NCBI RefSeq assembly: GCF_902686445.1
Contig: NC_062219.1
Coordinates: forward strand, 112,159,160-112,223,159
Reading direction: 5' to 3'
DNA length: 64,000 nt
Origin: Sciurus carolinensis
Taxonomy: Eukaryota > Chordata > Mammalia > Rodentia > Sciuridae
Shown piece by piece: positions 41,495-61,609 of the stretch. Below the pieces are notes generated by a model. That model did no database searches, was not told the DNA's origin, and was given only the letters and a program-made list of their open reading frames with translations. The first letter of the stretch is position 1, and each line of letters starts with the position of its first letter. The position numbers and the translations under genes were made by a program.

Positions 41495-41526
41495 ATGCCC
41501 GCACGCACGCAAGCACGCAAGCACGG
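41495..41526. repeat. (GCAC/GCAA)n short tandem repeat
   Basis: GCCCGCACGCACGCAAGCACGCAAGCACGG; a short CpG-bearing tetranucleotide array. Confidence 0.85.
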
Positions 41527-41857
41527 ACCTCTGCCTTCCACCTCATACCCTTGCCCCAGTGGGGAGATGAGGGAAATCTGTCTGCAACTTATTTTCATTT
41601 GGGTCTGGCGGGTCTCAACAGATCCATCCAGGGACGTGCAGGGCCCTGTGTCCTATCCATATGACACACACCCACAATCAGAACTTCTGGAGGGAGAGGG
41701 AGGAGGAGGCATCCCAGGGATTCAGAGTCTTCGGACTGAAGACATTCAGTGGCCAAACACCACCCTAGAAAGGGAGGAGGGATGGGGATCACAAGGAAAG
41801 ACAAAGAGGCCGAAGTGGGCATCCAGTCTTCTGTCGTCTTCTTCCATCTTCCAACCC

Positions 41858-41972
41858 AGTGGTTCTCAACCCAGGTCACACATAGAATCACCTGGGGAGC
41901 TTTTAAAAATGCAGATGTCTAGGCTCCAGTCCCAGGAAGTTTGATTTAACTCTTCTTCCAGTAAGAAGTTTG
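41858..41972 (+). mobile_element. MER5A-like hAT transposon relic
   Basis: CCCAGTGGTTCTCAACCCAGGTCACACATAGAATCACCTGGGGAGCTTTTAAAAATGCAGATG is the typical MER5A 5' half; the 3' half is lost. Confidence 0.9.
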
Positions 41973-42119
41973 TGGCATCAATTACATGTGCAGACAGGAC
42001 CTTTGCCTAATAGAATGGCAGAGGGCCAGAGGAAGAGCTTGCCCTTTCCAGGCGTACAGGGTGGGCACCATACTCTGAGACCCCAGCTTCATGTCCTTCA
42101 TCAACATAATGCAGAGAAT

Positions 42120-42302
42120 GGGTAGGTTCTCATTTTCCCTGTCCCCTTCCCTGGCCTTGGACAAATCACTTGGCTTCCCAGAGCCTCAATTTCTTCATCC
42201 ACAAAATAGTTGGAGAGATTAGTTGCCACTTGAGAGGTACTTGTAAAAATTAAGTGATTAAGTCTACACAGTCCTGAGCATTTAAAAACAATCAATAAAA
42301 TG
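42120..42302 (+). repeat. MIR SINE
   Basis: GACAAATCACTTGGCTTCCCAGAGCCTCAATTTCTTCATCCACAAAATAG ... ATTAAGTGATTAAGTC ... CTGAGCATTTAAAAACAATCAATAAAATG; MIR core to tail. Confidence 0.75.
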
Positions 42303-42379
42303 TAGCTAGATTACCTAGTCAGCTTTCCATTACTATAACAAACACCTGAGATGAGAAATTTATAAAAAGAAAGGATTGG

Positions 42380-42552
42380 ACAGCCACAGTGGTGCACACC
42401 TGTAATCTCAGTAGCTTGGGAGGCTGAGGCAGGAAGATCTCAAGTTCAAAGCCAGCCCTAAGCAACTCAGTGAGACCCAGTCTCTTAATAAAACATAAAA
42501 GAGCTGGGGATGTGGCTCAGTGGTTAAGAGACCTGGGTTCAATCCCCATTAC
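42380..42552 (+). mobile_element. B1-dID composite SINE (nested)
   Basis: ACAGCCACAGTGGTGCACACCTGTAATCTCAGTAGCTTGGGAGGCTGAGG (B1), GAGCTGGGGATGTGGCTCAGTGGTTAAGAG...TTCAATCCCCATTAC (ID). It sits inside the older repeat at 42314. Confidence 0.93.
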
Positions 42553-42680
42553 AAAAGAAGGGGGGCATATTTTGGCTCACAGTTTGGGAGATATCAGTCC
42601 ATAAGCAGTTGGCCCTGTTGCTCATGGGTCTATGATGAAGCAGCGCATCCTGGTAGGAATGGCAGAGTGAAACTGCTTAC

Positions 42681-42812
42681 TTGAACCCAGCGAGAATTCA
42701 AAATAAAATATAAAAATGGCTGGGGATGTGACTCACTGGTTAAGTGCCCCTGGGCTCAATCCCTGGTACCAAAGCACAACAAACAAAAACAAACAAACAA
42801 ACAAACAAAACA
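42681..42812 (+). mobile_element. 5'-truncated B1-dID SINE with 11-bp target-site duplication and (AAAC)n tail
   Basis: Only the end of the B1 part and the ID part remain (GGCTGGGGATGTGACTCACTGGTTAAGTGCCCC...CAATCCCTGGTACC). AAACTGCTTAC at 42670-42680 recurs as AAACTGCTTGC at 42813-42823. The tail is an (AAAC)n array. Confidence 0.9.
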
Positions 42813-43152
42813 AAACTGCTTGCTTCATGGCCAAGGAACAAAAAGAGAGAAAGAGGAAGGGGCCAGCCAGTGTCCCAGTATTCCCTTGAAGAGCACACCC
42901 AGTAGCGTGGAGACCTGCCACAAGGCCCTAATAGGTTCCACCGCCTCCCAATAGTGCTGCCTGGGAACCAAGCCTCCAAAACTTGGACCTTTGGGGGATA
43001 TTAACCTTTTTTTAAATTGTAAACAAATGGTGTACAACTTGTTTCTCAGGTTGTACATGAAGTAGAGGCATACCATTTGTGTAATCATACATTTACATAG
43101 GGTAATGGTGTTTGAGTGCTAGCCTTTTATTTTGAAAAATGAAAGCTAAAGT

Positions 43153-43335
43153 CGGTCATGGTGGCACCCACCTGTAATCCCAGTGACTTTGGAGGCTGAG
43201 ACAGGAGGATCACAAGTTCAAGGCCAGCCTCAGCAACTTAGTCCTGTCTGAAAATTAAATCAATCAATCAATCAATAAATAGAACTGAGGTCATAGCTCA
43301 GTAGTAAACATCCCTGGTTTCAGTTCCTAGTATTA
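43153..43335 (+). mobile_element. B1-dID composite SINE with internal (AATC)n linker
   Basis: GTCATGGTGGCACCCACCTGTAATCCCAG...GACAGGAGGATCACAAG (B1), an AATCAATCAATCAATC linker, then GAACTGAGGTCATAGCTCAGTAG...TTTCAGTTCCTAGTATT (ID). Confidence 0.9.
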
Positions 43336-43509
43336 AAAAAAAAAAAAATGAAAGCCAATTTGTACACCTGTGTTCGTAGTAGCATTATTCGAAACAGCTA
43401 AAAGGTCAAAGCAAACTAAATGCCCATCTACAGAAGAATGGATAAGAAAATGTGATAAATGCACACAATGGGATATTACTCAGTCTTTTTAAGAAGGGAA
43501 TTCCTTTTT

Positions 43510-43633
43510 ACTTTCCATATTTTTTATTGATGCATTATAGTCGTACATAATGGTGGGATTTGTTGTTACATACGTGTACATGCACACCATGTAACAATAT
43601 AATTTGGGAAATATCATTCCCCAGTATTTCCCC
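43510..43633 (-). mobile_element. Antisense L1 3' terminal fragment (nested)
   Basis: The reverse complement ends ...TTATGTACGACTATAATGCATCAATAAAAAAT, a poly(A)-signal-containing terminus unlike the host L1. It lies inside the host L1 3' region. Confidence 0.6.
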
Positions 43634-43954
43634 TTTCCCAAAAGGAGGAAAATTTTGACACAGGTCACAGCATGGATGACCCTCAAGGACATATGTTAAG
43701 TGAAATCAGTCAGTCACTAAAAGATGCTGTATGGTTCCACTTGCAGGAAGTTCCTAGGGTGGTCAAATTTTAGGACAGAATGGTGGTTGCAGGTGCCAGG
43801 GGTACAGGAGGTGGGGACTTAGTGTTTAATGGGTACAGAGTATCAGTTTTGCAAGATGAGAAGAGCCGTAGAGATGGATGGTGGGTTTAGATGCACAACA
43901 ATGGAAGGTATTTAATGCCACTGGAACTGTACACTTAAAAATGAGTTCAGATGG

Positions 43955-44047
43955 GACTTGGGATGTAGCTCAGTGATTAGGGCACTTACCTAGTATGTGC
44001 CAGGCCTTGGTTTCAATCCCCAGCACCACAAAGATTTTTTTTAAAAA
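43955..44047 (+). mobile_element. ID element with 11-bp target-site duplication (nested in L1)
   Basis: GACTTGGGATGTAGCTCAGTGATTAGGGCACTTACC...TTTCAATCCCCAGCACCAC. AGTTCAGATGG flanks it at 43944-43954 and 44048-44058. Confidence 0.93.
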
Positions 44048-44083
44048 AGTTCAGATGGTAAAGTTTATGTATACTTTGCCACA

Positions 44084-44150
44084 ATATTAAAAAAAAAAAA
44101 AAAAAAAAAACCTGGAGAAAAATAAATAAATAAATAAATAAATAAAAGCC
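44084..44150. repeat. Poly(A) and (AAAT)n simple repeats
   Basis: About 21 A residues at the end of the L1 at 43350, then (AAAT)n at 44120-44147. Confidence 0.93.
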
Positions 44151-44159
44151 AGAATTAGC

Positions 44160-46900
44160 CACACAGTTGACCTGAGCAATGCTGTGCTCCTAGAGAAGGG
44201 TGGACACATGGCCTTGCCTTCAGGCCTCTCCTGAGATAGATACAGGGGGACAGATGCTAAATGAATGAACGCAAGATTTATACTGACAATAAACAGGAAA
44301 TCATAGATGGTTTTAAATATTTACATAGTATACAGGCTTCAGGGTGAGGACATTACAGGGGAGGGTGGAGGAGGGGCAGGAGATATAGGACAAAGTAAAC
44401 ATTGGTAGAAAAAGGGGACTGAAGTCGTCCAAACATGCGCACCGAGGGAGAAAAGACGACCACTGGAGGGGGAAACCCCTGTCCAGGCCCAGGAGAGTGA
44501 GCCAGAAGTCTGGGCCGCCTCCTGTCTTCCTTCCACAGGAGATCCTTGTTTACCCTGCTAGGCTGAAAGAGAATGTAATCAAATTACGACTCATTATTCT
44601 AAACTGTCTCCAGTGGGCAGGGCAGGCAGGGAGGCTGGAAAAGGGAAACAAGCTGTTTTCCAGAACATTGTTCATTTGCTCCTTCTCCAGCTCCCTCTGT
44701 CCCCAAGCCCTTTGCTCCCTTTCTGGCTCCCCCTGTCCTGCCACATTCCGCCCTCCTTCCCGCCATCAGTTCCTTGGGCAGAACCAAAGTTAGGGGAGCA
44801 GAGCTGGAACTTCCATATCTGAGCAAGTGACCACAGGCAGGACAATCAGCAATGTCCCGCCTCCAGGGGCTCCCATGTTGGAGACCACCTAACCCCCAGC
44901 AAAGAACCTCTCCAGCCCCTCCCACCTGCCCACCAAAGAACAAATTCAATCTGTTGCTAGAAGTCAGGTTGCTTGGTTGATCAGGTCTACCTCTCTAACT
45001 TGCTGGGTCTTCGGGGTCTTTGGGGAGTGGTGGGTCATGTCAGAATGAACCCCTCTGTTTTCCCTTTCCTGCCATCCAGGACTTATTTGAGAATAAGGGG
45101 TGATTCCATCCATTAGGACCCTCAGATCTGACACCCAGAAGCCTAACACAGATAAAATAAACAGAGCTTCAGCAACAGGGGCAGCAGCTGGGAGCGTGGG
45201 ATGGCCCTGTGCCATGAACCCCACAGAGATCCAGGGACCAACATGGCCTGGCAGCAACGAACTCAATGCCCCGCAAGGATCATCCCTGATCCACACAAGC
45301 CTACATGCAGTTTCTCACAAAGGGGAGTAGTGGGGCAGAGGTCCCTTTGGAAGGCCAAATGGGTTAAAAAGGGGAAATAAAGCAATCGCCCTCTTCCTCC
45401 GTTCTGGCCAGCTGCCTTCCAATGACCCAACAGGAGTGAGCAGAGAGGCCGGCTCCACCGCCTCCCCTGGGTTCTCACGTTCCATGTCCTGGCAGCTCTT
45501 GGTCATAAATACATCAGAAAATCTTCTCTGGGGTCAAAAGGAAACTGTGAACAAAGGGGAAAATTGGCATTTTTCCAAACATTGAGTTATGACAGTCCCG
45601 TCTCCCCCACCCACCCCGCCCCACCGCCACGACACACACGAGCCATGCATGGAGCATGTTTGTGCTCACTCAGAAAACATGGGCACGAGTCCTCACATCC
45701 CAGAAAAACTCTAGTTTATGTTATTTTATTATTAATACTCACAACTTTAATAAATTCACCCCCAAACTGCCAGATCCAAAGCTCACTCAGTTTCCAGAAG
45801 CCAGGAAGATGGTATTGAGGGAATGTTGTGACTGTCCCAATCCTGACCCTGCACTCTTCTCACTGCCCCCACCCCACCACTCTCACCTGAGGCCAGTCTC
45901 CCTCGGGTCAAAATGGCTCCTGTAGCAACAGTAGGGGCAGAGTGAGAACATGAAAACAGAACTCCCCCGGGTCCCAGCCTCTCCCTTCTGTGCCAAGCCC
46001 AGTCCAGCGATGGAGGCACAAAGGAAGTACTTATACTTTGGCTCAAAGTGACAGATTCGTAAAATTGGGAGGTGACCTCAGAGATCCCTTGCCCAACATT
46101 TCATTTATACATGAGGTCATGGTAGTCTAGAACAGTCCAAGGTTGAGCCTCAGGCTCCACAGGCACTGAGAGGCAGAGCTAGCAGGTCATCGGCAGGGAC
46201 TCCCCAGTCCTTCAGCTATCTCCTTCCTCCCTCTGTCCTATCACTTTGTGACATTTGTCTCCCATCAGGCCTTCCCAGGATCCAGAAGAAAACCATTCTC
46301 AACAGTAGCCTTCTCCAGGAGCCCATTCCAGCTGGTTCCTAAGATGATCTCTCTCTCATCTGGACCCTATCCCTGGACTATGGCCCAGGTGATCTCCTGG
46401 CCCTCTAACGACACCCACATCAACCTCCAGGCAGGGATGGGGAGGGCCTTGGAATTCAGACTGCCAGATCAGGGCTTCCAGGTCTAGTCCATCCCTCTAG
46501 GTGACTCGTCAGACATCATATCTTATAAGAGGAGAAACAGAGTTTCAGCAAGGTGAATTGACTGGCCCAGGCTGACTTAGTTGGTCACTGGCAACTCTAG
46601 AGTCCCAAGGCTTTCTATTTCCATATGTCTGCCTAGAATAAAGACAATTCCCAGCAGCCCTGGCAGCTAAGTATAGCTATCTAGCTAAGTTCTGGCAAAT
46701 GCGATAAACCCGTCCTACCACTCTGAGTTGTAAGGATGGGACTGTTTGCAGAATCAGAGTCAAGAACCAGATGATGCTCTTTATGGATGGAGAAACAAGC
46801 CCAGACAGCATATGCATCTGACTTTATGTTGCCTAATTGTTCGGACAGAGGCTGATTTTCAGTCTGCAACTCTGTCCTTTTGTTTTTTTGGGTTTTTTGT
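44160..46900. other. Intergenic DNA; no gene seen
   Basis: Largely unique sequence with a candidate regulatory cluster at 44540-44700 and diverged MIR-like text at about 46055-46200 and 46520-46600. Open frames up to 116 codons have no domains. Confidence 0.5.
44540..44700. promoter_or_regulatory. Candidate non-coding regulatory element with forkhead and paired-homeodomain motifs
   Basis: This unique, non-repeat stretch packs recognisable motifs. TTGTTTAC (44546-44553) is a forkhead consensus. TAATCAAATTA (44576-44586), inside the inverted GTAAT-CAA-ATTAC, fits the P3 paired-type homeodomain dimer site TAAT-N3-ATTA. An AP-1-like GACTCATTA follows at 44588-44596. It contains no open frame of interest. 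Conservation would have to be tested; the regulatory call is inference. Confidence 0.35.
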
Positions 46901-46918
46901 TTGCTTGTTTGTTTGTTT

Positions 46919-47109
46919 TTGGTAGTAGTGGGACTGAACCACTGGTTCTCTAGCATGGAGCTACCTTTCCAGCCTCCCCCTACACTTTTTGTAATTTATT
47001 TTGAGACAAGGTCTCACTAAGTTGCCCAGGTTGTCCTTAAACTTTCAATCCTCCTGCTTCAGCCTCACAAGTCACTAGGATTACAGGTGTGCACCACTGC
47101 ACCCAGCTA
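46919..47109 (-). mobile_element. B1-dID composite SINE
   Basis: + strand: TTGGTAGTAGTGGGACTGAACCACTGG ... CATGGAGCTACCTTTCCAG ... CCTCCTGCTTCAGCCTCAC ... GTGCACCACTGCACCCAG. The TTTG-rich run before it is the reversed tail. Confidence 0.9.
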
Positions 47110-47239
47110 CTCTTATATATTTCTTCTTTGCATATAGAGGATAGCATCTGCCTAAAGCACCATTTTGTACATGTTCAGCAAAATGCACCAGCAGTTTCAA
47201 AGTGCCTTAAAAAGTTACAAACTTTTCCTTAGACCAGGG

Positions 47240-47439
47240 GCCCTGTGTGGTGGCGCACGCCTGTAATGCCAGTGGCTCAGGAGGCTAAGGCAGGGGAATT
47301 GTGAGTTCAAAGCCAGCCTCAGCAACTTAGCAAGGCCTTAAGCAACCTAATGAGACCCTGTCTCAAAATAAAATATAAAAATAGGACTGGGGGATGTGAC
47401 TCAGTGGTTAAGTGCCCCTGGGTTCAATCCCCAATTCCA
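47240..47439 (+). mobile_element. B1-dID composite SINE
   Basis: GCCCTGTGTGGTGGCGCACGCCTGTAATGCCAG...GCTAAGGCAGGGGAATTGTGAG (B1), GGACTGGGGGATGTGACTCAGTGGTTAAGTGCCCC...TTCAATCCCCAATTCC (ID). Confidence 0.94.
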
Positions 47440-49440
47440 AAAAAAAGAAAAAATGCATTTGGAGAAAGGACTCAGATGAGTTGCTTAGATTAACAGGGAC
47501 ATGAAGGCATTTTCGGAAAGGTATCCAGCCCTCTGCAGAAATACCAGAGCAGGGGCTTACTTAGATTGTGAGGGAACTGAGCTGAGTTGGCTTCACTGGA
47601 CATGGCCGCAGGCTGGGCCTCTCACTTGGTTTAGAGTCCAGTCCATGCCTGTGAGGGCACCCAAATGCCATACCAGGTCTTTTCCCCCTCCCACAGGCAG
47701 TTTTGTTTGGGACCTTCCTCTAGTCTCACTTTCCCAGAAGCCTTTGGGATAATGAAGACCCTCAGAACTGCCTCTCACTGATTCTACTTCTTTTTTTTGT
47801 TTTCCTTCCTTGTCCTTATTAGGGCAGTCCTGTGTCCTAGTGCTCCAGCATAGAAATGAATCTGTTTTGCTTTACAATCAATCTGTTATATGAAACATTT
47901 AAGTTTCATGTACTTTTTCTGAATGTGTCCTATTTTCATGATTTAAAATGTTTTAAAAATAGATAAATTAAAAGGAAAGAGCAAGTGAACTTCAGGGCAA
48001 TCATCAAATTCATAAAATGTTTCTTTTGTGAAACAAGAGGATTCACACCCAGAACATGTTCCCTCAGTGCATATAATCATTTGTTTATAAAAGGCACATA
48101 GTAACTGCTCAATTAATACCTATTGATGAAATGAATTCCTGAACAAATGAATGACAAAATTTGGACAGAGTAAAAATCCTGGCAAAGAAGAGAAGCAACA
48201 CTGAAAATTCGATGGGAAATGTTGAATTAGCAAAGACTCCAGATCTAGTCCCAACTGTTGCCAGGCCCATGGTGTCAGCAGGACACACCTGTAGAAAGGC
48301 CACTACCAAACAAGGGCTTTTTGTCCAAGGTTTCCCCCACCCCCCGACTCAGCTTTTTGGGAGGCCACAGCCCAAACTGTCGGGCACTGCCCCGTATGAA
48401 AGGTCGTGGGAAACCAAAGTGTGCAACCAGGCGAGCCCACAGCAGCCAGGCCCTGGCCTTTTCCCCAGCCCAGCTGTCTCCACAGCTTGAGGTGCAGTCC
48501 CTTCCCTCATCTGCATAAAACCAGTGAAGGGAGAAGGGCTAGCCGCTGCACATGAAACCAGACCCTTCTTGGGAGGCATCCAGCCTCAGTTCCTGGCCTG
48601 GGCAGGGCAGGCCACGTGTTGTTATGGTTGAGTGGACCAGCTGGGAATCAGCAGGGGGGTTGTAAGGAAACCACATTAATTAAGAGAAAGCAAACATGAC
48701 TGTCACTCCAGTCTGCCAGTCCCTTCCTCTGCTTTCCCTTGCCCCCTCCCACCATGGTCTCTACCGGATCAGTTCTCTCCACCTTCCCACACTTTTCATT
48801 GCCTCTGCTCTTTCACAGATCACAACCATGTGGCTCTTGGCTCTGATCTTTCTTCCTGGGCGAGGTGGGAAGAAAGCTAGAAGCACATCCATCCACAGCT
48901 GGGCTCAGAACTTCCCTGAAGTCAGACTGGCTGACCCACCCAAGGCGTCCTAACTCTTGCGTCTGCTCTGGCCTGAGCCTGTTGGTGGGCAGCAAGGCAC
49001 CAGACCACATCGTTTCTGCTACAAGTTGAAATTTTCCTTGGCATGAATATGTCTGGGTTCTTCTCCTATGGGCATTTCCCTGAACATCTTCCTTAGGAAG
49101 CTTTATTTGGGATTAACATGATCTCCAGAATTAGGAGACAAAAGTCCAGAACAAAGTATGGAGGAATAAAGGAAGGTTTCCTTGGGAAGCAGGGTGGAAG
49201 CTGGGGGTTGGGCTCCTTGGAAGAGGGAGTTGGGTAAGGGGAGGTTCAGCACACAGTGTCATTGCTGCTCTATGAATTCCAGGATTGTCACTGCAGCTAG
49301 AAATAGTTCTCCCATACATTACAGTAGCTCTGCCAACAGCCCCCAGAAATCATGAAAAGACCTTTCCCTTGGGTGGCAGCTACCATTTTGTAGCCCCCAG
49401 ACAAGGTCCTTCATCCCCTTTTATTTCGCAGCATAATTGT
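47440..49440. other. Intergenic DNA left of the LARP4 retrocopy; no gene seen
   Basis: Holds an L2-like terminus at 48085-48165 (GGCACATAGTAACTGCTCAATTAATACC) and otherwise unique sequence. No promoter-like CpG island is seen before the retrocopy apart from its own copied 5'UTR. Confidence 0.5.
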
Positions 49441-49452: not shown

Positions 49453-49470
49453 AAAAGAAAAGAAAAAAAG
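49453..49470 (+). repeat. Left target-site duplication of the LARP4 retrocopy
   Basis: The 18-base A/G sequence immediately before the GC-rich 5' end of the LARP4 copy recurs at 53273-53290 in its tail. It is preceded by TTAAAA, the preferred L1 endonuclease cut site. Low complexity (A and G only) makes the exact length uncertain; it could extend to 26 bases on the left. Confidence 0.75.
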
Positions 49471-49608
49471 CGGACGGCGGGGGAGGAGACGGGTCCACTG
49501 CCCGGTGGAGGGGCAAGGCAAGTGTCCTTATCCAAGCGATTGGGGCTCTGGCCTGCGTGCCAGTTGGAGTCGCCGCAGCCGGAACGATTGGGCCGAGCGG
49601 AGGAAGAC

Positions 49609-49710
49609 ATGTTGCTCTTCGTGGAGGTAACATCTGAAGGAACTGGTTTAAATCCTAATGCCAAAGTATGGCAAGATTTCCTCCTGGAACCCCTGATGCC
49701 ACTCCTGTAA
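49609..49710 (+). pseudogene. LARP4: Ancestral LARP4 start frame, frameshifted after 20-odd codons
   Basis: The frame MLLFVE...GTGLNPNAKVWQ matches the LARP4 N-terminus, including the PAM2-like PABP-binding segment. It then shifts by a deletion at about 49674-49678 and stops at TAA 49708-49710 after 33 codons. It overlaps the start of the long 651-codon frame by 43 bases. Translation from this first ATG would bypass the long frame, so the layout resembles an overlapping upstream ORF. Confidence 0.85.
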
Positions 49711-51623
49711 CTCATGGAACTGAAAGCTCTTGGCATGAAACAGCAGCCACATCAGGGTCTCATCCTGAAGGAAATGCTGAGCTTTCAGAAGATATGTGTA
49801 AGGAATATGAAGTAATGTATTCTCCATCTTGTGAAACCACAAGAAACACTACAGGCATTGAAGAATCAACTGATGGAATGATATTAGGACCTGAAGAGCT
49901 GAGTTACCAAATATATGATGTTTCTGGAGAAAGCAGTTCAGCAATTTCTACAGAAGACCTAAAAGAATGTCTAAATAAACAATTAGAATTCTGTTTTTCA
50001 AGAGAAAACTTGTCAAAGGATCTTTATTTGATATCTCAGATGGATAGTGATCAGTTCGTCCCAATTTGGACAATTGCTAACATGGAAGAAATAAAAAAGC
50101 TGACCACAGATCCTGATCTAATTCTTGAAGTGTTGAGATCTTCTCCTATGGTACAAGTTGATGAGAAAGGTGAGAAGGTGAGACCAAGTCATAAGCGTTG
50201 TATTGTGATTCTCAGAGAGATTCCTGAAACAACACCAGTAGAGGAAGTGAAAGCTTTGTTTAAAAGTGAAAACTGCCCCAAAGTGATAAACTGTGAGTTT
50301 GCACACAATAGCAACTGGTATATCACTTTTCAGTCAGACACAGATGCACAACAGGCTTTTAAATACTTAAGAGAAGAAGTTAAAACATTTCAGGGCAAGC
50401 CAGGCATGGCAAGGATAAAAGCCATCAACACTTTTTTTGCTAAGAATGGTTATCGATTAATGGATTCTGGTATGTATAGTCAGCCCATTCAAACTCAAGC
50501 ACAGTATGCCTCACCAGTCTTTATGCAGCCTGTATATAATCCTCACCAACAGTACTCAGTCTATAGTATTATGCCTCAGTCTTGGTCTCCAAGTCCTGCA
50601 CCCTACTTTGAAACGCCACTGGCTCCCTTTCCCAATGGTAGTTTTGTGAATGGCTTTAATTCACCAGGATCTTATAAAACAAATGCTGCTGCTATGAATA
50701 TTGGTCGACCATTCCAAAAAAATCGTGTGAAGCCTCATTTTAGGTCATCCAGTGGCTCAGAATATTCAACAGAGGGTTCTGTATCACTGGGGGATGGACC
50801 ATTGAACAGATCTAGTTCAAGGAACTTTCCACCCGAACGGCCTAACCCTATGGTAACAGGGAATCAGGAGCAAACTCAACTTCCCAAGGAGACTCCTGTT
50901 TTACAAGTGGAACAGAATGGGGACTATGGTAGGGGCAGGAGAACTGTTTTCAGAGGTCGAAGACAGCAAGAAGATGACAGAGTCCCAAAACCCCATCCTT
51001 CAACAGCTGAAACAAAGGCTCCAACACCAAAGTTTGACTTACTAGCTTCAAACTTTCCTCCACTACCTGGCAGTTCATCAAGAATGCCAGGTGAACTGAT
51101 TTTGGAGAACAGAATGTCTGATGTTGTTAAAGGTGTCTACAAAGAAAAGGATAATGAAGACTTGAGAGTTAGTTGCCCAGTGCCTGCAGAGGATGAGCAA
51201 ACAGACTGCACTTCTGCCCAGCAACTCAATATGAGTACCAGTCCTCCATGTACAGCTGAGCTTCCTGCATTAAGCACAACTCAGCAAGAAAAGGATCTGA
51301 TAGAGGAATCCACTGTTCAGAAGGACATTCTCAATCACATGACTATACCAGTTTCTTCCCCAAGCACTACAAAGACATCACGGGCAAATACTGCTTCACC
51401 AAGTAATAGTAACATAAATGCATCTGGAGCTGTGACCCTACAGGAACCTCGAAAGTTAAGTTATGCTGAAGTGTGCCAGAAGCCCCCTAAAGAGCCAGTT
51501 CCAGTTCTTGTGCAGCCACTACGGGAACTTCGCTCCAATGTTGTGTCTCCCACCAAAAATGAAGAGACTGGAGTTCCTGAGAAGTCCATTGAAAAATTAC
51601 GAGAAGCCAGAAGCAAGGGTTAG
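49668..51623 (+). CDS. 651-codon open frame of the LARP4 retrocopy (La motif + RRM; expression unproven)
   Basis: This is the longest open frame in the window and matches LARP4 over nearly its whole length. The La motif is at about residues 94-176 (from STEDLKECL to PSHK, including LEFCFSRENLSKD). An RRM-like domain follows at about 177-255, with RNP2-like CIVILRE and RNP1-like NWYITF. After it come a Tyr/Gln/Pro-rich linker, an RG-rich patch (GRGRRTVFRGRRQ, 421-433) and the conserved KFDLLASNFPPLPG (455-468). The start ATG has A at -3 and G at +4, a good initiation context. It is overlapped by the ancestral ATG frame (49609-49710), which would act as an inhibitory upstream frame. The product would lack the first ~20 LARP4 residues, including the PAM2-like LNPNAKVW segment, and would end in about ten aberrant residues in place of the normal C-terminus. 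Human LARP4 is about 724 residues. No native promoter is evident. Confidence 0.75.
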   Translation: MARFPPGTPDATPVTHGTESSWHETAATSGSHPEGNAELSEDMCKEYEVMYSPSCETTRNTTGIEESTDGMILGPEELSYQIYDVSGESSSAISTEDLKECLNKQLEFCFSRENLSKDLYLISQMDSDQFVPIWTIANMEEIKKLTTDPDLILEVLRSSPMVQVDEKGEKVRPSHKRCIVILREIPETTPVEEVKALFKSENCPKVINCEFAHNSNWYITFQSDTDAQQAFKYLREEVKTFQGKPGMARIKAINTFFAKNGYRLMDSGMYSQPIQTQAQYASPVFMQPVYNPHQQYSVYSIMPQSWSPSPAPYFETPLAPFPNGSFVNGFNSPGSYKTNAAAMNIGRPFQKNRVKPHFRSSSGSEYSTEGSVSLGDGPLNRSSSRNFPPERPNPMVTGNQEQTQLPKETPVLQVEQNGDYGRGRRTVFRGRRQQEDDRVPKPHPSTAETKAPTPKFDLLASNFPPLPGSSSRMPGELILENRMSDVVKGVYKEKDNEDLRVSCPVPAEDEQTDCTSAQQLNMSTSPPCTAELPALSTTQQEKDLIEESTVQKDILNHMTIPVSSPSTTKTSRANTASPSNSNINASGAVTLQEPRKLSYAEVCQKPPKEPVPVLVQPLRELRSNVVSPTKNEETGVPEKSIEKLREARSKG

Positions 51624-51780
51624 TAAGGATTATTCTGGCTTCCGAGGCAATACCATTCCCAGGGGAGCAGCTGGAAAAATCAGGGAACAGAGACGCCAGT
51701 TTAGCCATAGGGCTATACCTCAGGGAGTGACTCGACCTAATGGCAAAGAGCAATATGTGCCACCCAGATCACCAAAGTAA
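51600..51780 (+). pseudogene. LARP4: Displaced LARP4 C-terminal coding segment
   Basis: After the deletion near 51597, the C-terminal LARP4 sequence continues in a third frame (EKPEARVSKDYSGFRG ... REQRRQFSHRAIPQG ... PPRSPK) and ends at the natural stop TAA 51778-51780. The long frame itself runs out at TAG 51621-51623, so this basic C-terminal region is not translated from the retrocopy unless ribosomes shift frame. Confidence 0.9.
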
Positions 51781-53011
51781 AATCAAAAAAACAAAACTAT
51801 TCAAAAACTTTCTCTCTTCCCATTAAACTTGAGCCGTGGCTATATCGAACTGTTTTGGAGGGGAGTGGGTAGCCAGGAAGGAAACAAAGTATGTCCTTAA
51901 ATCATTATGGATTTTTGAGTTGTGAGGAGTAGAATCCCAAAATTCATCTCTAAAGTGATTTTAAAATGCTGGAGGATTCCAATCAGTATAAATACATATC
52001 TATATACCTATATAAAATGTAATTTTTCTATTTTTGTTTTCAATTTTAATTTACAAAGATTTTTCTGCCTGGAATCAATTTTGAGGGTTCAGATTTAGCT
52101 TGAGAAATTTTAAAAAACAAAACAAAACAAAACAAAAAAAAAAACAGTATACATCCTTCAGTATAGGAGATGAGGGAGTGAGAGAAAATATTTTTTGAAG
52201 AAGCATTTCTGTAAAAATTAGAAATTACTTTTTTTAATCTATTTAAAGTTTGGCTTGGAGAATGTCATCTCTGATTATATGGCCTTGTGTTGCAAGCAGA
52301 TCAGTGACTAGGGTGTCTGTGAGTGTGAGTGTGTGCAAGAGTGATTTAAGCCAAATCTGTTGTCATGTTAGTAAATGATTTGAAAACTGAATGTAATACT
52401 TGAGTAGATTTTTATTCTAGTTTGAAATTTAGTCTGTCTTTTCGACTTTATTAATATTTCATTCAACAGGCTGTTAAAATTTGATTGTACTTGGAGATGT
52501 GACTACCAATCACTTTGATACTCAAGGAAAGAATGGAGGCTATCCAGAAAACTTCATCTTGGACCTGAAGTGATAGGTCAAGTGAATTTCAGAGGTTTAA
52601 ACTACTCTGTGATCCCTCATCCACAAAACTTTTTTGCTTCTTCATTTGTTACTCTTTGTTTTTTGACTACCTACCCCCAAAAGCAAAATAACCAACCACC
52701 TACTGAATTGTATATTTCTGTCTGCTTTAATTAGTCCAGTCAAATCATATAACAGTTATAAATTTGGAAATTTAATGTTGAATTACTTTAGTCTTCTGTT
52801 CACATACTCAGAATTTTAGGTCCCAGAAAGGTGGAGCAGACTGACCTTCCAGTAATATATTTGTTTATTGTTAAAAATGGAATTTTGTAACTGACTTTTT
52901 TTAAGTATTAAATAGTATAGAAGTAAAGAGAAAATTTTTATAAAGGCTTAATTTGGGGGAAACTTTCTGTTTACAGTATATTTATCACCTTGCTTCCTTC
53001 CTCTTCTCAAA

Positions 53012-53084
53012 AAAAAAACTATATATATATATATGTACACTATACATATATATATATATGTATATATATATACACACACAGTTT
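53012..53084. repeat. AT/GTAC/CA dinucleotide microsatellite in the LARP4-derived 3'UTR
   Basis: Alternating TA runs are interspersed with TGTACAC and end in CACACACA. The tract sits in the 3'UTR of the retrocopy, about 200 bases before its tail. Whether the parent gene carries the same microsatellite cannot be told here. Confidence 0.85.
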
Positions 53085-53272
53085 GGAATTCACTGAAACA
53101 GCAAGAGATTTTTATGATAAGGTGATAAAAATGGTTGAATAAAATTAATGCAGAATTTCTCAGTGAATAAAGTTGTAGCTGTCATATTAAATAGGCAAGT
53201 TTACATGCTGGTATTTAGAAAATGGCTAAAATATTAAAAACCATGTTGCATTAATCTGTTTTAAGTAAAAAA

Positions 53273-53290
53273 AAAAGAAAAGAAAAAAAG
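53273..53290 (+). repeat. Right target-site duplication of the LARP4 retrocopy, merged with its A-tail
   Basis: This is an exact copy of the 18 bases at 49453-49470, lying inside the A-rich run that ends the retrocopy. The tail before it is ten A residues following TTTTAAGT. Confidence 0.72.
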
Positions 53291-53647
53291 AAAAAAAGCC
53301 CACAGCATACCCAACTGAGGATAGGGGTATATAAAGAGGGCTCACTGATTAACTAGGTGTCATTTTTTGAGTAGGAAAATAGGTCCTAGAAAATATGTTT
53401 GAATTGAAAGCAAGCTAAAAGTCTAGCAACAGGGAATTGGTTGAATAAGGGCTGGCAACTTCTAGAAAATGAAATCATACATTGTCATGAAAAATGATAC
53501 CCAAGGACAACAATAGAGATTAATGGAACCAGAGATGCCAGAAGACAGACTAGATAAAATGTAGTGGGGGAAGTGTACTTTTTTTTTTTTTTAATGGTTC
53601 TGGGACAGTTAGATATTGCTGTGGGAAAAATGAATTTTTTTTTTTTT

Positions 53648-53839
53648 AAACCGGGGATTGAATTCAGGGACACTCAACCACTGAGTCACATTCCCAGCCC
53701 TATTTTTTATTAAGAGCCAGGGTCTCACTGAGTTGCTTAGCACCTCACTTTTGCTGAGACTGGCTTTTAACTCTCAATCCTCCTGCCTCAGCCTCCAGAG
53801 CTGGGGGGGATTACAGGCATGTGCCACCACACCAGGTGG
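53648..53839 (-). mobile_element. B1-dID composite SINE
   Basis: + strand: ACCGGGGATTGAATTCAGGGACAC ... CACTGAGTCACATTCCCAG ... CCTCCTGCCTCAGCCTCC ... GTGCCACCACACCAGG. A T run (53635-53647) is the reversed tail. Confidence 0.93.
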
Positions 53840-54660
53840 AAAATGAAACTTAATCCCAATCTCAAACCATATAACAAAACAATTCCAGATGAATTTAAAT
53901 TCTAAATGTGAAAGGTAAAAAATAAAGTTTTGGGGAGAAAAATACTAGAACATCTTTGTGACTTTAAAGAGAAAAACAATTAATAGTAAATTAAAAGAAC
54001 AAACAATAAAGAAAAACCCCAATGAACTGCAATATATTAAAAATGAAAGATTACTGCTCACCTAAACAACATACTAACTGGAAAGAATAAGCAACCCACA
54101 GAGAGGTATAAGACATTTGCTATATAAGGATAAGTATCTAGAATATATAAAGAATTAGAAATTGAGAAGACAGAAACAAGCAACCCCAAATAAAAGAGAC
54201 CAAAGTCTTGAACATATATTTTACAAAGGAAGATATATAAATAGCCTATAAATATATGAAAAGTTATTCATCTTCATTAGGCATCCAAGAAATTAAAATT
54301 CACAATGAGACACTACTACACGTCAACCAGAATGACAAGATAAAAACTACAAAAGATATCAAATATTAACAAGGCTGAAGATCACCTCTATCTCTTATAC
54401 ATTAATTGGTGTCAGAGTAAACTGGTGCAATCACTGTGGGAAATTGTCAGGATTTATGAAAGCTCAGCATATGTATACCTGATAGCCTAACAATTCCACT
54501 GCTAGCTACATGCCGGAAAAAGGGTTATTCTTGTTTTTGCCAAAGGTCACGTTTTGTCCCAGGACTATTTTCAATAGTTTTAAATGGAAAGGATCAACAG
54601 AACACAGGTTTTTTTTTAAATGTGACATATTCACAGCAGAGTATTTCTGGTGCTAAAAGT
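53840..54660 (+). mobile_element. Old L1, 3' part of ORF2 (degraded)
   Basis: L1 ORF2 phrases: AAGGAAGATATATAAATAGCCTATAAATATATGAAAAG, GCATCCAAGAAATTAAAATTCACAATGAGACACTACTAC and CTAACAATTCCACTGCTAG. Several stops and indels make it non-functional. Confidence 0.85.
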
Positions 54661-54680
54661 TGACATAAAGATCATCCTTG

Positions 54681-54773
54681 CAGGGGCTGGGGAGACAGCT
54701 CAGTTGGTAGAGTGCTTGCCTTATAAGCACAAGGCCCTGGGTTCGATCCCCAGCACCCCCCCCCCCAAAAAAA
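54681..54773 (+). mobile_element. Young ID element with 14-bp target-site duplication
   Basis: GGGGCTGGGGAGACAGCTCAGTTGGTAGAGTGCTTGCC...GGTTCGATCCCCAGCACC, then a C run and A tail. AAAGATCATCCTTG is at 54667-54680 and again at 54774-54787. Confidence 0.95.
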
Positions 54774-55697
54774 AAAGATCATCCTTGGAAGGAGTAATGT
54801 CTAGAAGGGGACACAGCCAGCAGTAAAGAGTGCTGGTTATGTTTACTTGTTGGCATGGATAGTGTGTTCCATTTGTGAAAACTCATCAAATTGCACACCA
54901 CTGATTTGTATACTTTCTTGTATAATTAATACTTTCATTTACAGGGGTGTGTGTAAAATCTTGTCTCTCACATTTCATGTAGAGACTAATAATAAATGTA
55001 TTTAGAAAAATAAGATATTACAAAACAATACACAGATTATTATTTCATTTTGCTAAACAAATAACACTTCTCTGGTCATGGGTGGCACTTATTTTCTTTT
55101 TATTTCATCTATTTCTTCTTTATTCTACAATGATCACATTACCTGCTATTGTAGAAAATATGTGGTTTTTCAAAATAAAATTTGATTGTGATAAGTTAAT
55201 GAGCAAAGGTTGGGCACTTGAATGCTTTAGCTCACTATGTCCAAAACAAGTGCTGGGTGGAGCTTTGTTACTGCCCCAATCTCTGCCGTGTCCCAAGAAG
55301 TAGTTGAGGATGGGTAAAGAAATGGAATACGGTACAAAAAGTGGGTGTGGTTAAAGGTCATCTACATAAAAGAAAAGTGTAAGCTATAGGGAGAGTCAAA
55401 GCTTTCGAATTTTGGCTGGGAAACCTAGACCTATATCTCACCAAGACCTTCTGTTCCATTCCTAACCCAGGTGTTAGTCTCTCCCACTTGACTGACATTT
55501 CTTTCAAGCTTCCCCTTAGCCTGGTTGTCTTTGCTGAGTGTGGTGTTTTTTAGTACCCCAATGCCACGTTTCCCCTGTTCTCCATGTCTTTGGTGATGCC
55601 ACTCAAGTGCCTCATGCAGCAACTGCTCTGCATCGTCCAGCCCACCAGTCCCAACTAGAAAATGGGCTCCTCTCTCTCCCTCTCATCAAGGAACATC

Positions 55698-55786
55698 TGG
55701 GGGCTGGGGAGATAGCTCAGTCGGTAGAGTGCTTGCCTTGTAAGCACAAGGCCCTGGGTTCAATCCCCAGCACCCCCCCAAAAAAA
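55698..55786 (+). mobile_element. Young ID element with 8-bp target-site duplication
   Basis: GGGGCTGGGGAGATAGCTCAGTCGGTAGAGTGCTTGCC...GTTCAATCCCCAGCACC, C run and A tail. AAGGAACA lies at 55688-55695 and 55787-55794. Confidence 0.92.
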
Positions 55787-55799
55787 AAGGAACACTTAA

Positions 55800-56810
55800 T
55801 AAGCCTCATCTTTCTCATCTTTGAATCAAAGTAAGATGACTAGAAATTCACCCTTTAGGTTTATTCTGGAAGGGAGGGGGATTCTTACCACTAAGTGGAA
55901 TAATTGAGTTGCAAATGATCTTCCTTTCTTACATAGCTCCAAGGGGAACACTGTACAGATCCTGCCAATGTAAAAGAGGGAAAACTAGGCAGTGGTATTT
56001 TCTTTCTGGGTATCATAAGTTTCCTTATAAGGCAAGACGGTCAAACATGAAAAGAGCTATCTCAATTAATTCACTTATGTTTGTGGAACATGTTTTATCT
56101 AAGATTCACAACAACCCTACAGAATTGATTTGCAACCGGAGGAAGTGTTGGAGATACTAAAGTCAGCAAAAAGCAATATTCCTGCTTTAATGGAGTTTAC
56201 ACTCTGGTAGGGAGACACATGTTATACAAACGAATGTAAAACTGCCACTGTGTTGAGCACAAAGATGGAGACTTATCTAGGGCTGAGAACCAGAATAAGG
56301 ATGGTCAAGGAAGACTTCACTGTAGAAATGAATGTGAGGTGGGCTCTAAGAAATAAGGAGGAGTTTGCCAAATTGTTAAAAGAGCAGGCAGAGGATAAAA
56401 CTTGTGCAAAGACCTTGATGCTGGAGAGAAGGCTGAGCAAGAATCCAAGATCAATGTGTGTGTTGGGGGTGTGGAGTGTCGGTAAAATGGTCGTGTTAAT
56501 TCTATCCCCAGTCTGTCTAAAAACCTGATACTCCAAAGTCAGAGTTTCTAACCATTCAACCTCTCCAGTACAGGTCTAGCCCCAGTCACAGATACTGAAC
56601 ATCCACAGCTGATTTGCAGAAAAGAGGAAACTCCGAAGAGTTACGGGTGGTGTAAAGAAGTCTCCTAGGGAACGAAAGCAACTTTGGAGACGAGGGATTG
56701 GCAGAAAGAAGCTAGAAGATCTCGAACGAAATGAAATACAGACTTGACACAATGGCTTCTCTCCTTAGCTCAAATCCAGAAGGGGCAAGAGAAATGGCAA
56801 TAACAGGCCT
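55800..56810. other. Intergenic DNA with L2-like remnants; no gene seen
   Basis: Text around 56090-56470 (GGAGTTTACACTCTGGTAGGGAGAC ... GGCAGAGGATAAAACTTGTGCAAAGACC) resembles an ancient L2-type repeat. A 92-codon open frame on the + strand (56250-56528) lies in it and is not called. Confidence 0.5.
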
Positions 56811-56813
56811 AAA

Positions 56814-57003
56814 GGCCAGGAGCGGTGGTACACTCCTGTAACCCCAGGGGCTCGGGAGGCTGAGGCAGGAAGATCTCAACTTAGGCAGCAATTTAGGAAG
56901 GCCCTAGGCAACCTAGAGAGACCCTGTCTCAAGATAAAAAGTAAAAAGAGCTGGGGATGTGGCTCAGTGCTGAAGCGCCGGAGGGGGTTCAATCCATGGT
57001 ACC
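56814..57003 (+). mobile_element. B1-dID composite SINE next to the MRPS18A promoter
   Basis: GCCAGGAGCGGTGGTACACTCCTGTAACCCCAG...GCTGAGGCAGGAAGATC (B1), GAGCTGGGGATGTGGCTCAGTGCTGAAGCGCC...TTCAATCCATGGTACC (ID). It ends about 30 bases before the CpG-rich promoter begins. Confidence 0.94.
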
Positions 57004-57029
57004 AAAATAAACAAATATATAATAACAGC

Positions 57030-57137
57030 ACTAAATGAGCGAGGAGTCCGCCGCCGCTGGCGTTCCTGCCCAACTACCGGCTGCGCGCGCGCCGTTACGG
57101 AAGCGGAAGTGAACGGAGGTCAGGCTTGGTTTTCAAG
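57030..57137 (+). promoter_or_regulatory. MRPS18A: MRPS18A CpG-island promoter with ETS and YY1 motifs
   Basis: This stretch is markedly CpG-rich compared with the rest of the window, including an alternating GCGCGCGCGCC run around 57081-57092 that resembles a degenerate NRF-1 site. Two ETS-type cores lie close together, ACGGAAG at about 57097-57103 and GCGGAAGT at 57103-57110. The start codon is embedded in CAAGATGGCG (57134-57143), the classic YY1 element of many housekeeping genes. No TATA box is visible. ETS (GABPA/NRF-2), NRF-1 and YY1 sites are typical of nuclear genes for mitochondrial proteins. Transcription probably starts within about 40 bases upstream of the ATG, but the exact start cannot be read from sequence. 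Confidence 0.8.
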
Positions 57138-57249
57138 ATGGCGTCCCTCATGGCGCTGGTATCCGGCTGTGGGCGGCTGCTCCGAGGGCGCCTGGAGGTC
57201 CCACTCACTACCAGTTGTGCTCGACTTCCAGCTCGCGGATTCAGGGAAG
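57138..57249 (+). CDS. MRPS18A: MRPS18A exon 1 (partial gene; mitochondrial ribosomal protein S18A, N-terminus)
   Basis: The ATG at 57138 opens 37 codons plus one base, ending at a consensus splice donor (G|GTGAGT, donor at 57250). The peptide contains [10 protein letters not shown] and RLPARGFRE, which match the N-terminus of human MRPS18A as I remember it at the same length. The split base is compatible with the Val codon that follows in the human protein. MRPS18A is a bS18-family protein of the mitochondrial small ribosomal subunit, encoded in the nucleus and imported. The Arg-rich, acid-free start fits a mitochondrial targeting sequence. The frame is also open from a TTG at 57126, but the ATG is preferred because it sits in an AAGATGGCG context and gives the family's start. 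The remaining exons, including the zinc-binding-type S18 domain, lie beyond 64000. If intron 1 were retained, the frame would stop at 57351-57353. Identification is by memory of the family, not by a search. Confidence 0.93.
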
Positions 57250-58109
57250 GTGAGTCCCAAATCCTTGAGCGTCCGAAATTGAGAAAAGCAACAGAAAGTA
57301 CTTCCGCCTTCCTCTCCCTTCACGAGATTCTGAAACATCGGCGGAGGTGCTGACCTCGCGGGGTGCTTAAAACCTTCTTCCAGACCTTGGTGATGTTGCT
57401 TGAATCTCTGTGCCTTGTTAGTGTTCTCAGGAAATGGAGGAAGACGGAGGGAAAAGCCTAGTTACTTAACAGAAATAAAAAGAAACCTGTCGCAGGGTTC
57501 AGAAAAGTTTTCAGGAAGGACTTGCACCGCCATCTCCTTCATTAAAGTATTCCTGGACGATGAAGAAAGAACATTGGTTTCTCTTCTGAAAATGCTGTGA
57601 TCTGAAGGTGGCTTCTCCCCCATCCACCCTGGCCGGTAGTTTTCCTGAGAGGTGGAGTGGAGGCCAAGGCGGAAAGGCCACTGAACAGCTGAGACAGGCA
57701 AATGCCTCATGGTGGTTCCGCATTTCGTTAATATTGTCTGGGAGCCTGATTCTAGCATCAGCTGAAAGGTTACTGAAGGCCAAGTGCTGTGCTTCAAGCT
57801 GTGAAGGGATTCTGAAGAAAGAAAACACAGCCCTTTTTCTGAGAAGCTTAGGTTCTAATGAGATGATATGTATGCACTCCAGTAAATTCAAGTTAGACAT
57901 TTACATGACAAAGTACAGGGAGATTCAGTTACCAGAAACAGCAGACCCGGTTGGAAATTTTCATAAAGGAAATGTTTCTTGAACAGGCTTATAAATGGAT
58001 GGAATCTGGCAGAGAGTGAAAAGGTCTTTCAGGACATGGCCTTCTTTTGTGTACTGTTGGAAGCTGGAAAGGGAGTGATGTGCAAAATAAGCGATATGAT
58101 TTGGTTTGG

Positions 58110-58165
58110 GGGTTTTTTGTTTTGTTTTGTTGTTTGTTTGTTTTTTGTTTTTGTTTTTGTTTAAG
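58110..58165. repeat. (TTTG)n/(TTTTTG)n simple repeat
   Basis: T/G-rich tract in MRPS18A intron 1. A similar tract at 58730-58763 precedes the next SINE. Confidence 0.9.
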
Positions 58166-58766
58166 ATTCTGTCATAGTATTTATTGGCCAGCCAGTATAT
58201 CGTTAAAAGCTGAGAAGTATCCAGTGAAAAGAATGATCATTGTTGTCAGAGGGAGAAAGAAAAAAAGAGTTTAATTAAGGCATCTTTCGATTTGCCTTGG
58301 AAGAATTCTCTTTTTGGATTTCAAACAAGTTTCAGTTAGAGTGGCAAACAAATTTGGGGAAATCAAAGAGATATTCAAGAAGAAATGGTAATAGCAGGTA
58401 TGCTTGAAGAATTCAACTATGAAGGGAAGATGGGACAATTGGTAGGAGGAAAAAAAGTCCAGATTATTCCTGTTTAATGCTGGAATAGTCTATTAATAAA
58501 GACCAGACATCATGCTGATGACAGAAAGAACTTGGATAAGGTGTTGCATCTACTCCCATGCTGCATAATTAGGCCTATACTCACATATTTTTGAGGATAT
58601 CTACCAAGTGTCAAACACTAATGGCTGGAAATTGCATATCCTTTATGAAATTCAGAGTTGGAACAGTTCTTTGTTTTGTTCCCAGAAAAAAAAAAAGAGG
58701 AATAGTTTTTGTTTTGCTTGTTAGATTTTTATTTGTTGTTGTTTGTTTTGTTTTGCTTTGTTTTCC

Positions 58767-58936
58767 AATATGGGGGATTGAACACAGGGGTGCTTTACCA
58801 TTAAGCTACATCTCCAGCCCTTTGTATTTTGAGACAGGGTCTTCCTAAGTTGCCCAGGGCTGGCCTTGAACTTGTGACCCTCCAGCATCAGCCTCCCACA
58901 GTCCTAGGATTACAGATATGCGCTACTGCGCCAGGT
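58767..58936 (-). mobile_element. B1-dID composite SINE in MRPS18A intron 1
   Basis: + strand: CCAATATGGGGGATTGAACACAGGGGTGC ... TTAAGCTACATCTCCAG ... CATCAGCCTCCCACAG ... CTACTGCGCCAGG. Confidence 0.92.
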
Positions 58937-59460
58937 CTTATTTGTTGGGTTTTTAAAGACAGGAATGTTTGAGGTTAGACTTAGGGAATTGTTTTAGTTG
59001 AGGAGTCTGGGAAGTGATAGACTGTATATTCAAATGGCTCTCTAAAGTCTTCTCCATAAATACTTAGGTTAGTAGCTCTTATGTCTGTTAATCATTGGTA
59101 AACCTAAAGCTAGTCATTAGATTGAATTGATGTGGTCTTATGTGAAGGCACTATCATATTCTATGTTCTTGGGAATCATCTATGTATAGAACCTTTCAAT
59201 GAAATGAAAAATTATTTTGATCTATCCATTATTTGTAAAGCATAAAGTATTGCACATAAGCTAATTTTTATTAGTTCCTGTGGGTATATTTGACACCCAA
59301 ATAATATCGTACACAGAATTTAAAGTTGTGGGGAGGAAGTTGAGTCACTTGCTATAAGCATTTAAGCATCCTGCTTTTCAAAGGTAAAACTACATAATTT
59401 TATCAGAATGCTTGAGTACTGGGCACCTTCCTCCTGCCTGTGAATACTTCTAGTCTAAAA

Positions 59461-59650
59461 CAATGGTTCTCAATCAAGGACAGTTTATCTCCCAGGAAAC
59501 ATTAGGCAATGTCTTCAGACATATTTGGTTGTCACAACTGGTACTACTGGCATCTGATGGGTAAAGGCCAGGGATGCTACTAAAATAGTGCACCTGGCAG
59601 CTCCCTATAACAAAGAACCATCTGGCCCCAAATGCGAATCATGCTGCTTT
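59461..59650 (+). mobile_element. MER20 hAT transposon relic
   Basis: CAATGGTTCTCAATCAAGGACAG ... CAATGTCTTCAGACATATTTGGTTGTCACAACTGG ... GGCCAGGGATGCTACTAAA ... AACAAAGAACCATCTGGCCCCAAATG is in the MER20 order. Confidence 0.93.
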
Positions 59651-59774
59651 TAAGAATGTCTGGTGTAAAGTTTGGCAAGAGGTACATACAAAACCAACAG
59701 AGAGAGAGAGACAGAAAAAAATTTTTATGGAAGGAGCAAGACTGAAAAATAACAAAAATGAAAATTGTGATTTG

Positions 59775-59990
59775 CTAAGTTCTTGCTGCACCTACTGTGC
59801 TTGACTCTCCCATATGTTTATTCATTCTTTTTAACAGTCCTTAAAGGTGGCCATTAACTGTCCTTGTTTTTACATCTGAGGAAATCTGGTCCTAAGGAGT
59901 TCAGTAGCTTGCCCAACATGAACTGTAAGTGGTAGAGGTGGAAGTGGAGCCAACAGTCTTCCTTCTCAACCAGTAACATCATCTTGGTCC
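59775..59990 (-). repeat. MIR-like SINE
   Basis: TGCTAAGTTCTTGCTGCACCTACTGTGCTTG ... GTTTTTACATCTGAGGAAATC ... GTAGCTTGCCCAACATGAACTGTAAGTGGTAG; reversed and diverged. Confidence 0.65.
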
Positions 59991-60414
59991 TCCATGGCAC
60001 GACCTTCCTGTTGTTCCCTCCTTTCCTGAAAGTTCTTACCGTTTAACTTGCTAAAGACTGTTTAAATACCTTTATGGTTGGTACTGCCAGATGTAGCAAA
60101 GATTTTGTTAGATCTTAGTCCTGCTTTGTCACTCTTAGAGCCCTTGTTAAGGAATTTTTTTATTTAAAAACAAGAAAACAAATACATGATTACATGAATT
60201 AACAGCCATTATCTATACACGATTCAATACACTTTCAGCAGAACTTATTGAAATGAGGAAAAGCCAAAGGGAATTTGCATCATTTCTTTCATTTAGTTTA
60301 GGGAGCTTTCTAGAGGACTGTCATTTCATGTGCCAAGCAGGGTGGACAGTTTTGTGAACTAAAAGCTATGAGAGAAGAGTGAGCAAGTTGAAGACTTGGA
60401 AGAATTCAAGGGAC

Positions 60415-60538
60415 AGTCAGGTGGAGTGGCACACACCTGTAATCCCAGCAGTTTTGGAGGCTGACACAAGAGGACCACAAGTTTAAGGCCAGCCTCAGCA
60501 ATTTAATGAGACCCTCTCTCAAAAATAAAATAAAAAGC
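60415..60538 (+). mobile_element. B1 monomer, first of a SINE cluster
   Basis: GTCAGGTGGAGTGGCACACACCTGTAATCCCAG ... CACAAGTTTAAGGCCAGCCTCAGCAATTTAATGAGACCC followed by an A-rich linker. Its ID half is missing; the next SINE starts immediately. Confidence 0.9.
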
Positions 60539-60540
60539 TG

Positions 60541-60825
60541 GAAGTCAGGCCTGGTAGCATATGCCTATAATTCCAGCAGCTTGGTGGGGTGAGGCAGGAG
60601 GATCACCAAGTTCAAAGGCAGCCTCAGCCATTCAGTGAAACCTTGTCTCAAAAGATAAAAGATAAAGGGCCGGGGAGATAGCTCAGCTGGTAGAGTGCTC
60701 GCCTCGCAAGCACAAGGCCCTGAGTTTGATCCCCAGTACCACAATAAAAAATAAAAGATAAAAAGGGCTAAAGATGTGACTCTGTGGTTAAGTGCCCCTG
60801 TGTTCAATCTGGTACCAGAAGGGGT
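60541..60825 (+). mobile_element. B1-dID composite SINE split by a nested ID element
   Basis: GTCAGGCCTGGTAGCATATGCCTATAATTCCAG (B1), a linker interrupted at 60667-60750, then GGGCTAAAGATGTGACTCTGTGGTTAAGTGCCCC...TTCAATCTGGTACC (ID). Moderately diverged. Confidence 0.9.
60667..60750 (+). mobile_element. ID element nested in a SINE, 12-bp target-site duplication
   Basis: GGGCCGGGGAGATAGCTCAGCTGGTAGAGTGCTCGCCTCGCAAGC...TTTGATCCCCAGTACC. ATAAAAGATAAA occurs at 60655-60666 and 60751-60762. Confidence 0.93.
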
Positions 60826-60827
60826 GA

Positions 60828-60890
60828 GGGGTGCTGGAGATGTAGCTTAGTGGTAGATATGGGTTTAATCCCCACTACCACAAACAACAA
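60828..60890 (+). mobile_element. Short ID element, fourth of the cluster
   Basis: GGGTGCTGGAGATGTAGCTTAGTGGTAGATATGGGTTTAATCCCCACTACC; the middle of the tRNA-like unit is deleted. Confidence 0.85.
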
Positions 60891-61565: not shown

Positions 61566-61609
61566 ACTAATTAGAACAAATTTTTTAAAAATCTAAAAAA
61601 GAAAAAAAG
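61566..61609 (+). mobile_element. Minimal L1 tail insertion with 12-bp target-site duplication
   Basis: Only about 44 bases of the L1 3' end remain (ACTAATTAGAACAAATTTTTT plus an A-rich tail), matching the end of the copy at 16701. ATTGTGTCTTCC before it (61554-61565) recurs as ATTGTGCCTTCC after it (61610-61621). Confidence 0.8.

Follow-up and report, generated by a model that had tools for sequence, protein, structure and literature searches.

A near full-length LARP4 retrocopy with a 651-codon open frame in Sciurus carolinensis, very probably a young processed pseudogene

A long open reading frame in a retrocopy may reflect either constraint or recent insertion. This question is raised by a 64,000-nt stretch of Sciurus carolinensis DNA (contig NC_062219.1, positions 112,159,160 to 112,223,159, forward strand), here called the window. 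Its positions 49471-53266 are a near full-length, intron-free copy of the spliced LARP4 mRNA, in which a central frame is open over 651 codons. A sequence-only reading of this DNA had attributed the open frame to "recent insertion or constraint" and had suggested that its product could compete with LARP4. It is very probable that the copy is an ordinary young processed pseudogene.

Structure of the copy and its insertion site

The features of the copy are listed below. Only the coding part was set against LARP4, at the protein level, and the assignments of the 5'UTR and 3'UTR are presumed.

49453..49470, + strand: 5' target-site duplication, exact 18 nt
49471..49608, + strand: G+C-rich 5' part, presumed LARP4 5'UTR
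49609..49710, + strand: N-terminal frame of the parent, containing the original ATG and the PAM2w segment, 33 codons, stop
49668..51623, + strand: 651-codon central frame including stop; La motif, RRM, and by numbering the PBM and RACK1-site regions
51601..51780, + strand: parental C-terminal frame past the 2-nt deletion, with the normal ...VPPRSPK end and stop
51781..53266, + strand: presumed 3'UTR
53267..53272, + strand: poly(A) remnant, running into the A-rich 3' target-site duplication
53273..53290, + strand: 3' target-site duplication, exact 18 nt

The protein search with the 651-residue frame as query (7991 candidates scored, 1922 matched, the best 120 of the 1922 listed) ranked S. carolinensis LARP4 isoform X2 (P0001) first among the listed proteins, with 98% identity over 99% of the frame. 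On realignment, the copy and isoform X2 are continuous and colinear, without an intron-sized gap. The parental LARP4 would be a multi-exon gene, since listed isoforms, such as P0034, skip segments. This intron-free alignment and the flanking repeat support the earlier claim of a full-length LARP4 retrocopy. The source mRNA apparently belongs to an isoform that lacks both the extra glutamine and the optional LLPDPIPPLDSSLAS segment. A mutation of the copy is rejected as the reason for the glutamine absent after MLLFVE, because it is absent from isoform X2 as well. The copy differs from isoform X2 by two frame-changing deletions and 15 replacements counted as its own.

An identical A/G-rich repeat of 18 nt stands on both sides of the copy (49453-49470 and 53273-53290). 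When the 3' stretch was shuffled 1000 times at the mononucleotide level, one shuffle reached this length. The repeat is weaker evidence than this frequency suggests, because the sequence is A/G-rich and of low complexity. Thus, the exact flanks carry moderate weight for the target-site duplication noticed in the sequence-only reading. Ten A residues are found at 53267-53276, and the poly(A) tail is inseparable from the A-rich repeat. At the 5' flank, the A/G-rich stretch begins at 49445 and is preceded by GTACTT, a junction that we take to resemble the TT|AAAA nick site of L1.

About 1.5 kb of the presumed 3'UTR is retained. Its polyadenylation-like motifs include AATAAA at 53138 and 53166 and ATTAAA at 53233. 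It also contains a TA-rich microsatellite at 53020-53072, which may serve as a population marker.

In its intron-free structure, its flanking repeat in an A-rich site, and its frameshifts, the copy is like the mammalian processed pseudogenes generated by L1. It differs from them only in the particular parent gene and host, not in kind. Target-site duplications and poly-A tails are also described for the primate KU70 retrocopies (NUKU) in the excerpt of PMC8496227 consulted; those form a family of copies from another gene in other hosts, whereas a single copy was examined here. In a limited literature search, no paper pairing LARP4 with "retrocopy" was found; the pairing of LARP4 with "processed pseudogene" does occur.

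Reading frames and retained domains

The central frame runs from ATG 49668 to the stop at 51621-51623 and is open over 49668-51620, as had been described. The parental frame is split by a deletion of 1 nt near 49676 and another of 2 nt near 51598, in agreement with the two frame-changing deletions noted before. Both were deduced from the change of frame and from the number of bases separating the codons that match the parental protein, rather than from parental DNA. These two deletions are the disabling mutations present in the copy. The parental N-terminal frame begins at ATG 49609, reads MLLFVEVTSEGTGLNPNAKVWQD, and ends after 33 codons because of the 1-nt deletion. After the 2-nt deletion, the C-terminal piece is back in the original frame, with its stop at 51778-51780.

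The product of the central frame had been predicted to lack the PAM2-like segment. The PAM2w segment itself is still present in the DNA, downstream of the original ATG in the N-terminal frame. Its loss by deletion is thereby ruled out. The 33-codon frame from the original ATG overlaps ATG 49668, and an additional ATG at 49658 (12 codons) lies between the two. ATG 49668 has A at -3 and G at +4, which we grade as a strong context; ATG 49609 has G at -3 and T at +4, presumably a moderate one.

The retention of the La motif and RRM in the center was borne out. Pfam La matches the central frame at 74.3 bits against a cut-off of 37.1, and the RRM is recognized by alignment through the human La module structure 6i9b, which aligns over central-frame residues 91-266. 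The Pfam models RRM_fung and SET_assoc are below their cut-offs in the copy and the parent alike.

Age of the copy and survival of the open frame

The tree of 16 proteins groups the copy with the S. carolinensis proteins P0001 and P0064 and leaves S. vulgaris outside (support 99/94). This position and the closest listed protein both support the squirrel origin of the copy, and S. vulgaris outside this clade indicates that the copy is young. At eight sites, the copy shares its residue with S. carolinensis and differs from S. vulgaris. P410 and H575 are common to the copy and S. carolinensis and are not found in S. vulgaris or in those ground squirrels whose sequence covers the site (1 and 4 sequences, respectively). 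These residues occur rarely in other proteins (2 and 1, respectively, in the listed counts), and parallel change is therefore possible. The remaining six sites are best read, from the alignment, as changes in S. vulgaris or as uninformative. The comparison of sites is incomplete, as the S. vulgaris protein P0051 is gapped at 72 positions.

If missense changes make up ~0.7 of all substitutions, the 15 counted here imply an estimated ~21 substitutions in 2169 coding bases, or ~1% on the branch of the copy. The neutral rate in rodents is roughly 2e-9 per site and year. At this rate, the copy would be about 5 million years old. For scale, the excerpt of PMC8664420 consulted gives 19.27 MYA for the Sciurus species compared there.

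The copy and P0001 differ at 20 positions. In the first version of the analysis, these were 16 copy-derived changes, three residues altered in the parent after the copy was formed (indices 13, 583, and 682), and one unpolarised position. In the second version, positions 23 and 663, beside the deletions, were dropped, and the unpolarised position 264 (V or I to G) was counted as a change of the copy, giving 15 changes, 11 of them in the central frame.

These mutations are too few to yield a stop, and the 651-codon frame survives for this reason. For 11 missense changes, 0.54-0.76 stops are expected in the central frame under neutrality, and the probability of none is 0.48-0.59. When the four residues shared with P0064 are left out, 7 missense changes remain, with 0.34-0.48 expected stops and a probability of none of 0.63-0.71. 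Over all three pieces, with 15 missense changes, the values are 0.81-1.14 and 0.33-0.46. Under one model, the probability that the central frame has acquired a stop reaches 95% at ~81 substitutions. The frame has thus not been kept longer than chance. Of the two earlier explanations, recent insertion stands, while constraint as the cause of the open frame is rejected by this calculation.

The copy has changed more in amino acids than its parent. Over all pieces, 15 copy-derived replacements stand against 3 parent-derived ones (binomial p 0.0075), and 11 against 3 without the four P0064-shared residues (p 0.057). In the central frame, the counts are 11 against 1 (p 0.0063), and 7 against 1 without the shared residues (p 0.070). 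The replacements fit the LARP4 profile about as random missense changes do: -4.44 against -4.64 to -4.71 in the second version (p 0.21-0.27), and p 0.49 in the first. Slightly fewer invariant columns are struck than at random in both versions, not significantly in either: 3 of 15 against 5.3-5.6 (p 0.13-0.17) in the second and 4 of 16 against 5.65 (p 0.28) in the first. Invariance was judged from 117 listed proteins, several per species, with 259 of 723 columns invariant. By mean BLOSUM62 score, the replacements are milder than random: 0.50 against -0.38 (p 0.017) in the first version, with 16 changes. In the second, with 15 changes and inferred parental codons, the mean is 0.27, and random changes give -0.35 to -0.41 (p 0.06-0.08). 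This mildness leans weakly toward constraint and runs against the pseudogene reading. Judged from the aligned proteins, the relative rate and the profile fit argue against protein-level constraint. All these tests are at the amino-acid level.

It is very likely that the copy arose as follows. A spliced LARP4 mRNA would have been reverse-transcribed, most likely by the machinery of L1, and placed into an A-rich site after the S. carolinensis lineage had split from S. vulgaris. Later mutations, the 1-nt and 2-nt deletions among them, would have accumulated without evident protein-level constraint, and the copy presumably has no function. The case gives numbers to a general point: when the change on a retrocopy's own branch is estimated at 1%, an ORF of 651 codons does not point to function.

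Within the S. carolinensis clade, the copy pairs with P0064 (support 86/89), owing to four shared residues. P0064 is a partial S. carolinensis LARP4 model (longest contig 3.5 Mb). It was compared at the 20 positions where the copy and P0001 differ. It has the residue of the copy at four of them (286, 320, 413, and 417) and that of the parent at 14 (10, 13, 23, 226, 384, 451, 452, 583, 586, 663, 664, 671, 682, and 710), and is gapped at 121 and 264. Between P0064 and P0001, five differences are found in 627 aligned columns: those four and one at 176, which stands where P0064 is without a segment. P0064 also has a C-terminal extension that is absent from P0001. The extension and the four residues are likely to reflect a mis-joined gene model and assembly collapse, or possibly gene conversion; the copy-type residues probably stem from copy-derived reads that were built into the parental locus during assembly. 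A shared ancestral polymorphism is unlikely, because P0064 also has the three parental changes that are later than the copy. If P0064 reflects collapse or gene conversion, the copy would be present in a second S. carolinensis individual. The significance of the copy is mainly practical: it is near enough to LARP4 to yield false LARP4 variants in short-read data from squirrels, and P0064 may already show this.

Putative product, alternative explanations, and surroundings

The sequence-only reading expected the product of the central frame to bind RNA and to be able to compete with LARP4. In the excerpt of PMC6486636 consulted, PAM2w lies at 13-26, and the PBM, a second PABP site, at 287-358. 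On its own, the La module has a KD of 100-200 uM for oligo(A) and binds it >100-fold more weakly than the 1-287 domain. The truncations 95-287, 79-287, 50-287, and 24-287 are progressively better binders, none equal to the full domain. The largest contribution comes from the first 24 residues, with PAM2w. RACK1 binding is mapped to 615-625 in the excerpt of PMC11565960. The squirrel EPRKLSYAEVCQK segment starts at 613 of P0001 and is intact in the copy. By numbering, the PBM and the RACK1 site would be inside the central frame, and the putative product is therefore not simply without PABP binding. It would resemble LARP4 24-287, and reduced rather than absent oligo(A) binding is accordingly to be expected of it. 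Some RNA binding thus stands, but the proposed competition is weakened by the overlapping upstream ATG and the loss of the first 24 residues. A competitor is possible on paper; it would depend on presumed expression and on skipping of the first start codon.

A functional retrogene, whose translated 651-codon frame would interfere with LARP4 or PABP, is very improbable. The frame is open behind an ATG in strong context, the La module is retained, as are by numbering the PBM and RACK1 regions, and the replacements are somewhat milder than random (p 0.017; 0.06-0.08). However, the original ATG with its overlapping 33-codon frame, and ATG 49658, lie upstream; the intactness does not exceed neutral expectation; the copy has changed more than its parent; and the residues lost are the main contributors to oligo(A) binding in the excerpt of PMC6486636. 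A more specific form is equally hard to credit. The copy would be expressed in Sciurus, and leaky scanning would give a truncated LARP4 with the PBM, La module, and RACK1 site and without PAM2w, and this product would be a separation-of-function competitor. A weaker form of the idea has the parental LARP4 receiving sequence from the copy by gene conversion, a route that would account for the four copy-type residues in P0064.

There is only a slight chance that the frame breaks are assembly errors and that the real copy is intact. Both breaks are indels of 1-2 nt, the kind of error produced by long-read assemblies, but neither is in a homopolymer longer than five, and the copy has its 15 replacements besides. 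A transcribed non-coding retrocopy, acting through the shared 3'UTR as a microRNA sponge or other RNA decoy, would be consistent with the retained 3'UTR and its polyadenylation-like motifs. It is nevertheless most unlikely. Over 34001-49002 and 53301-64000, 12 read-through frames gave no Pfam match above cut-off that would point to a host gene in the vicinity. For the window as a whole, the longest ORFs were viewed by eye. The sole Pfam match in the scanned frames is Ribosomal_60s, at 18.3 bits against a cut-off of 28.1, overlapping an AGG repeat. An ordinary young processed pseudogene is thus the preferred reading.

Other repeats were observed in the window. A minisatellite at 26179-26921 has a 12-nt unit, TGGTGATGGTGA, with overlapping rows of 42, 72, and 102 nt, and the GC skew reaches 0.616 over 26001-27000, at this minisatellite. 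Rfam gave three tRNA matches (38365-38434, 54689-54760, and 55706-55778), of which ARAGORN finds only the last. We regard the three as probable SINEs derived from tRNA, of the rodent ID type, and not as tRNA genes.
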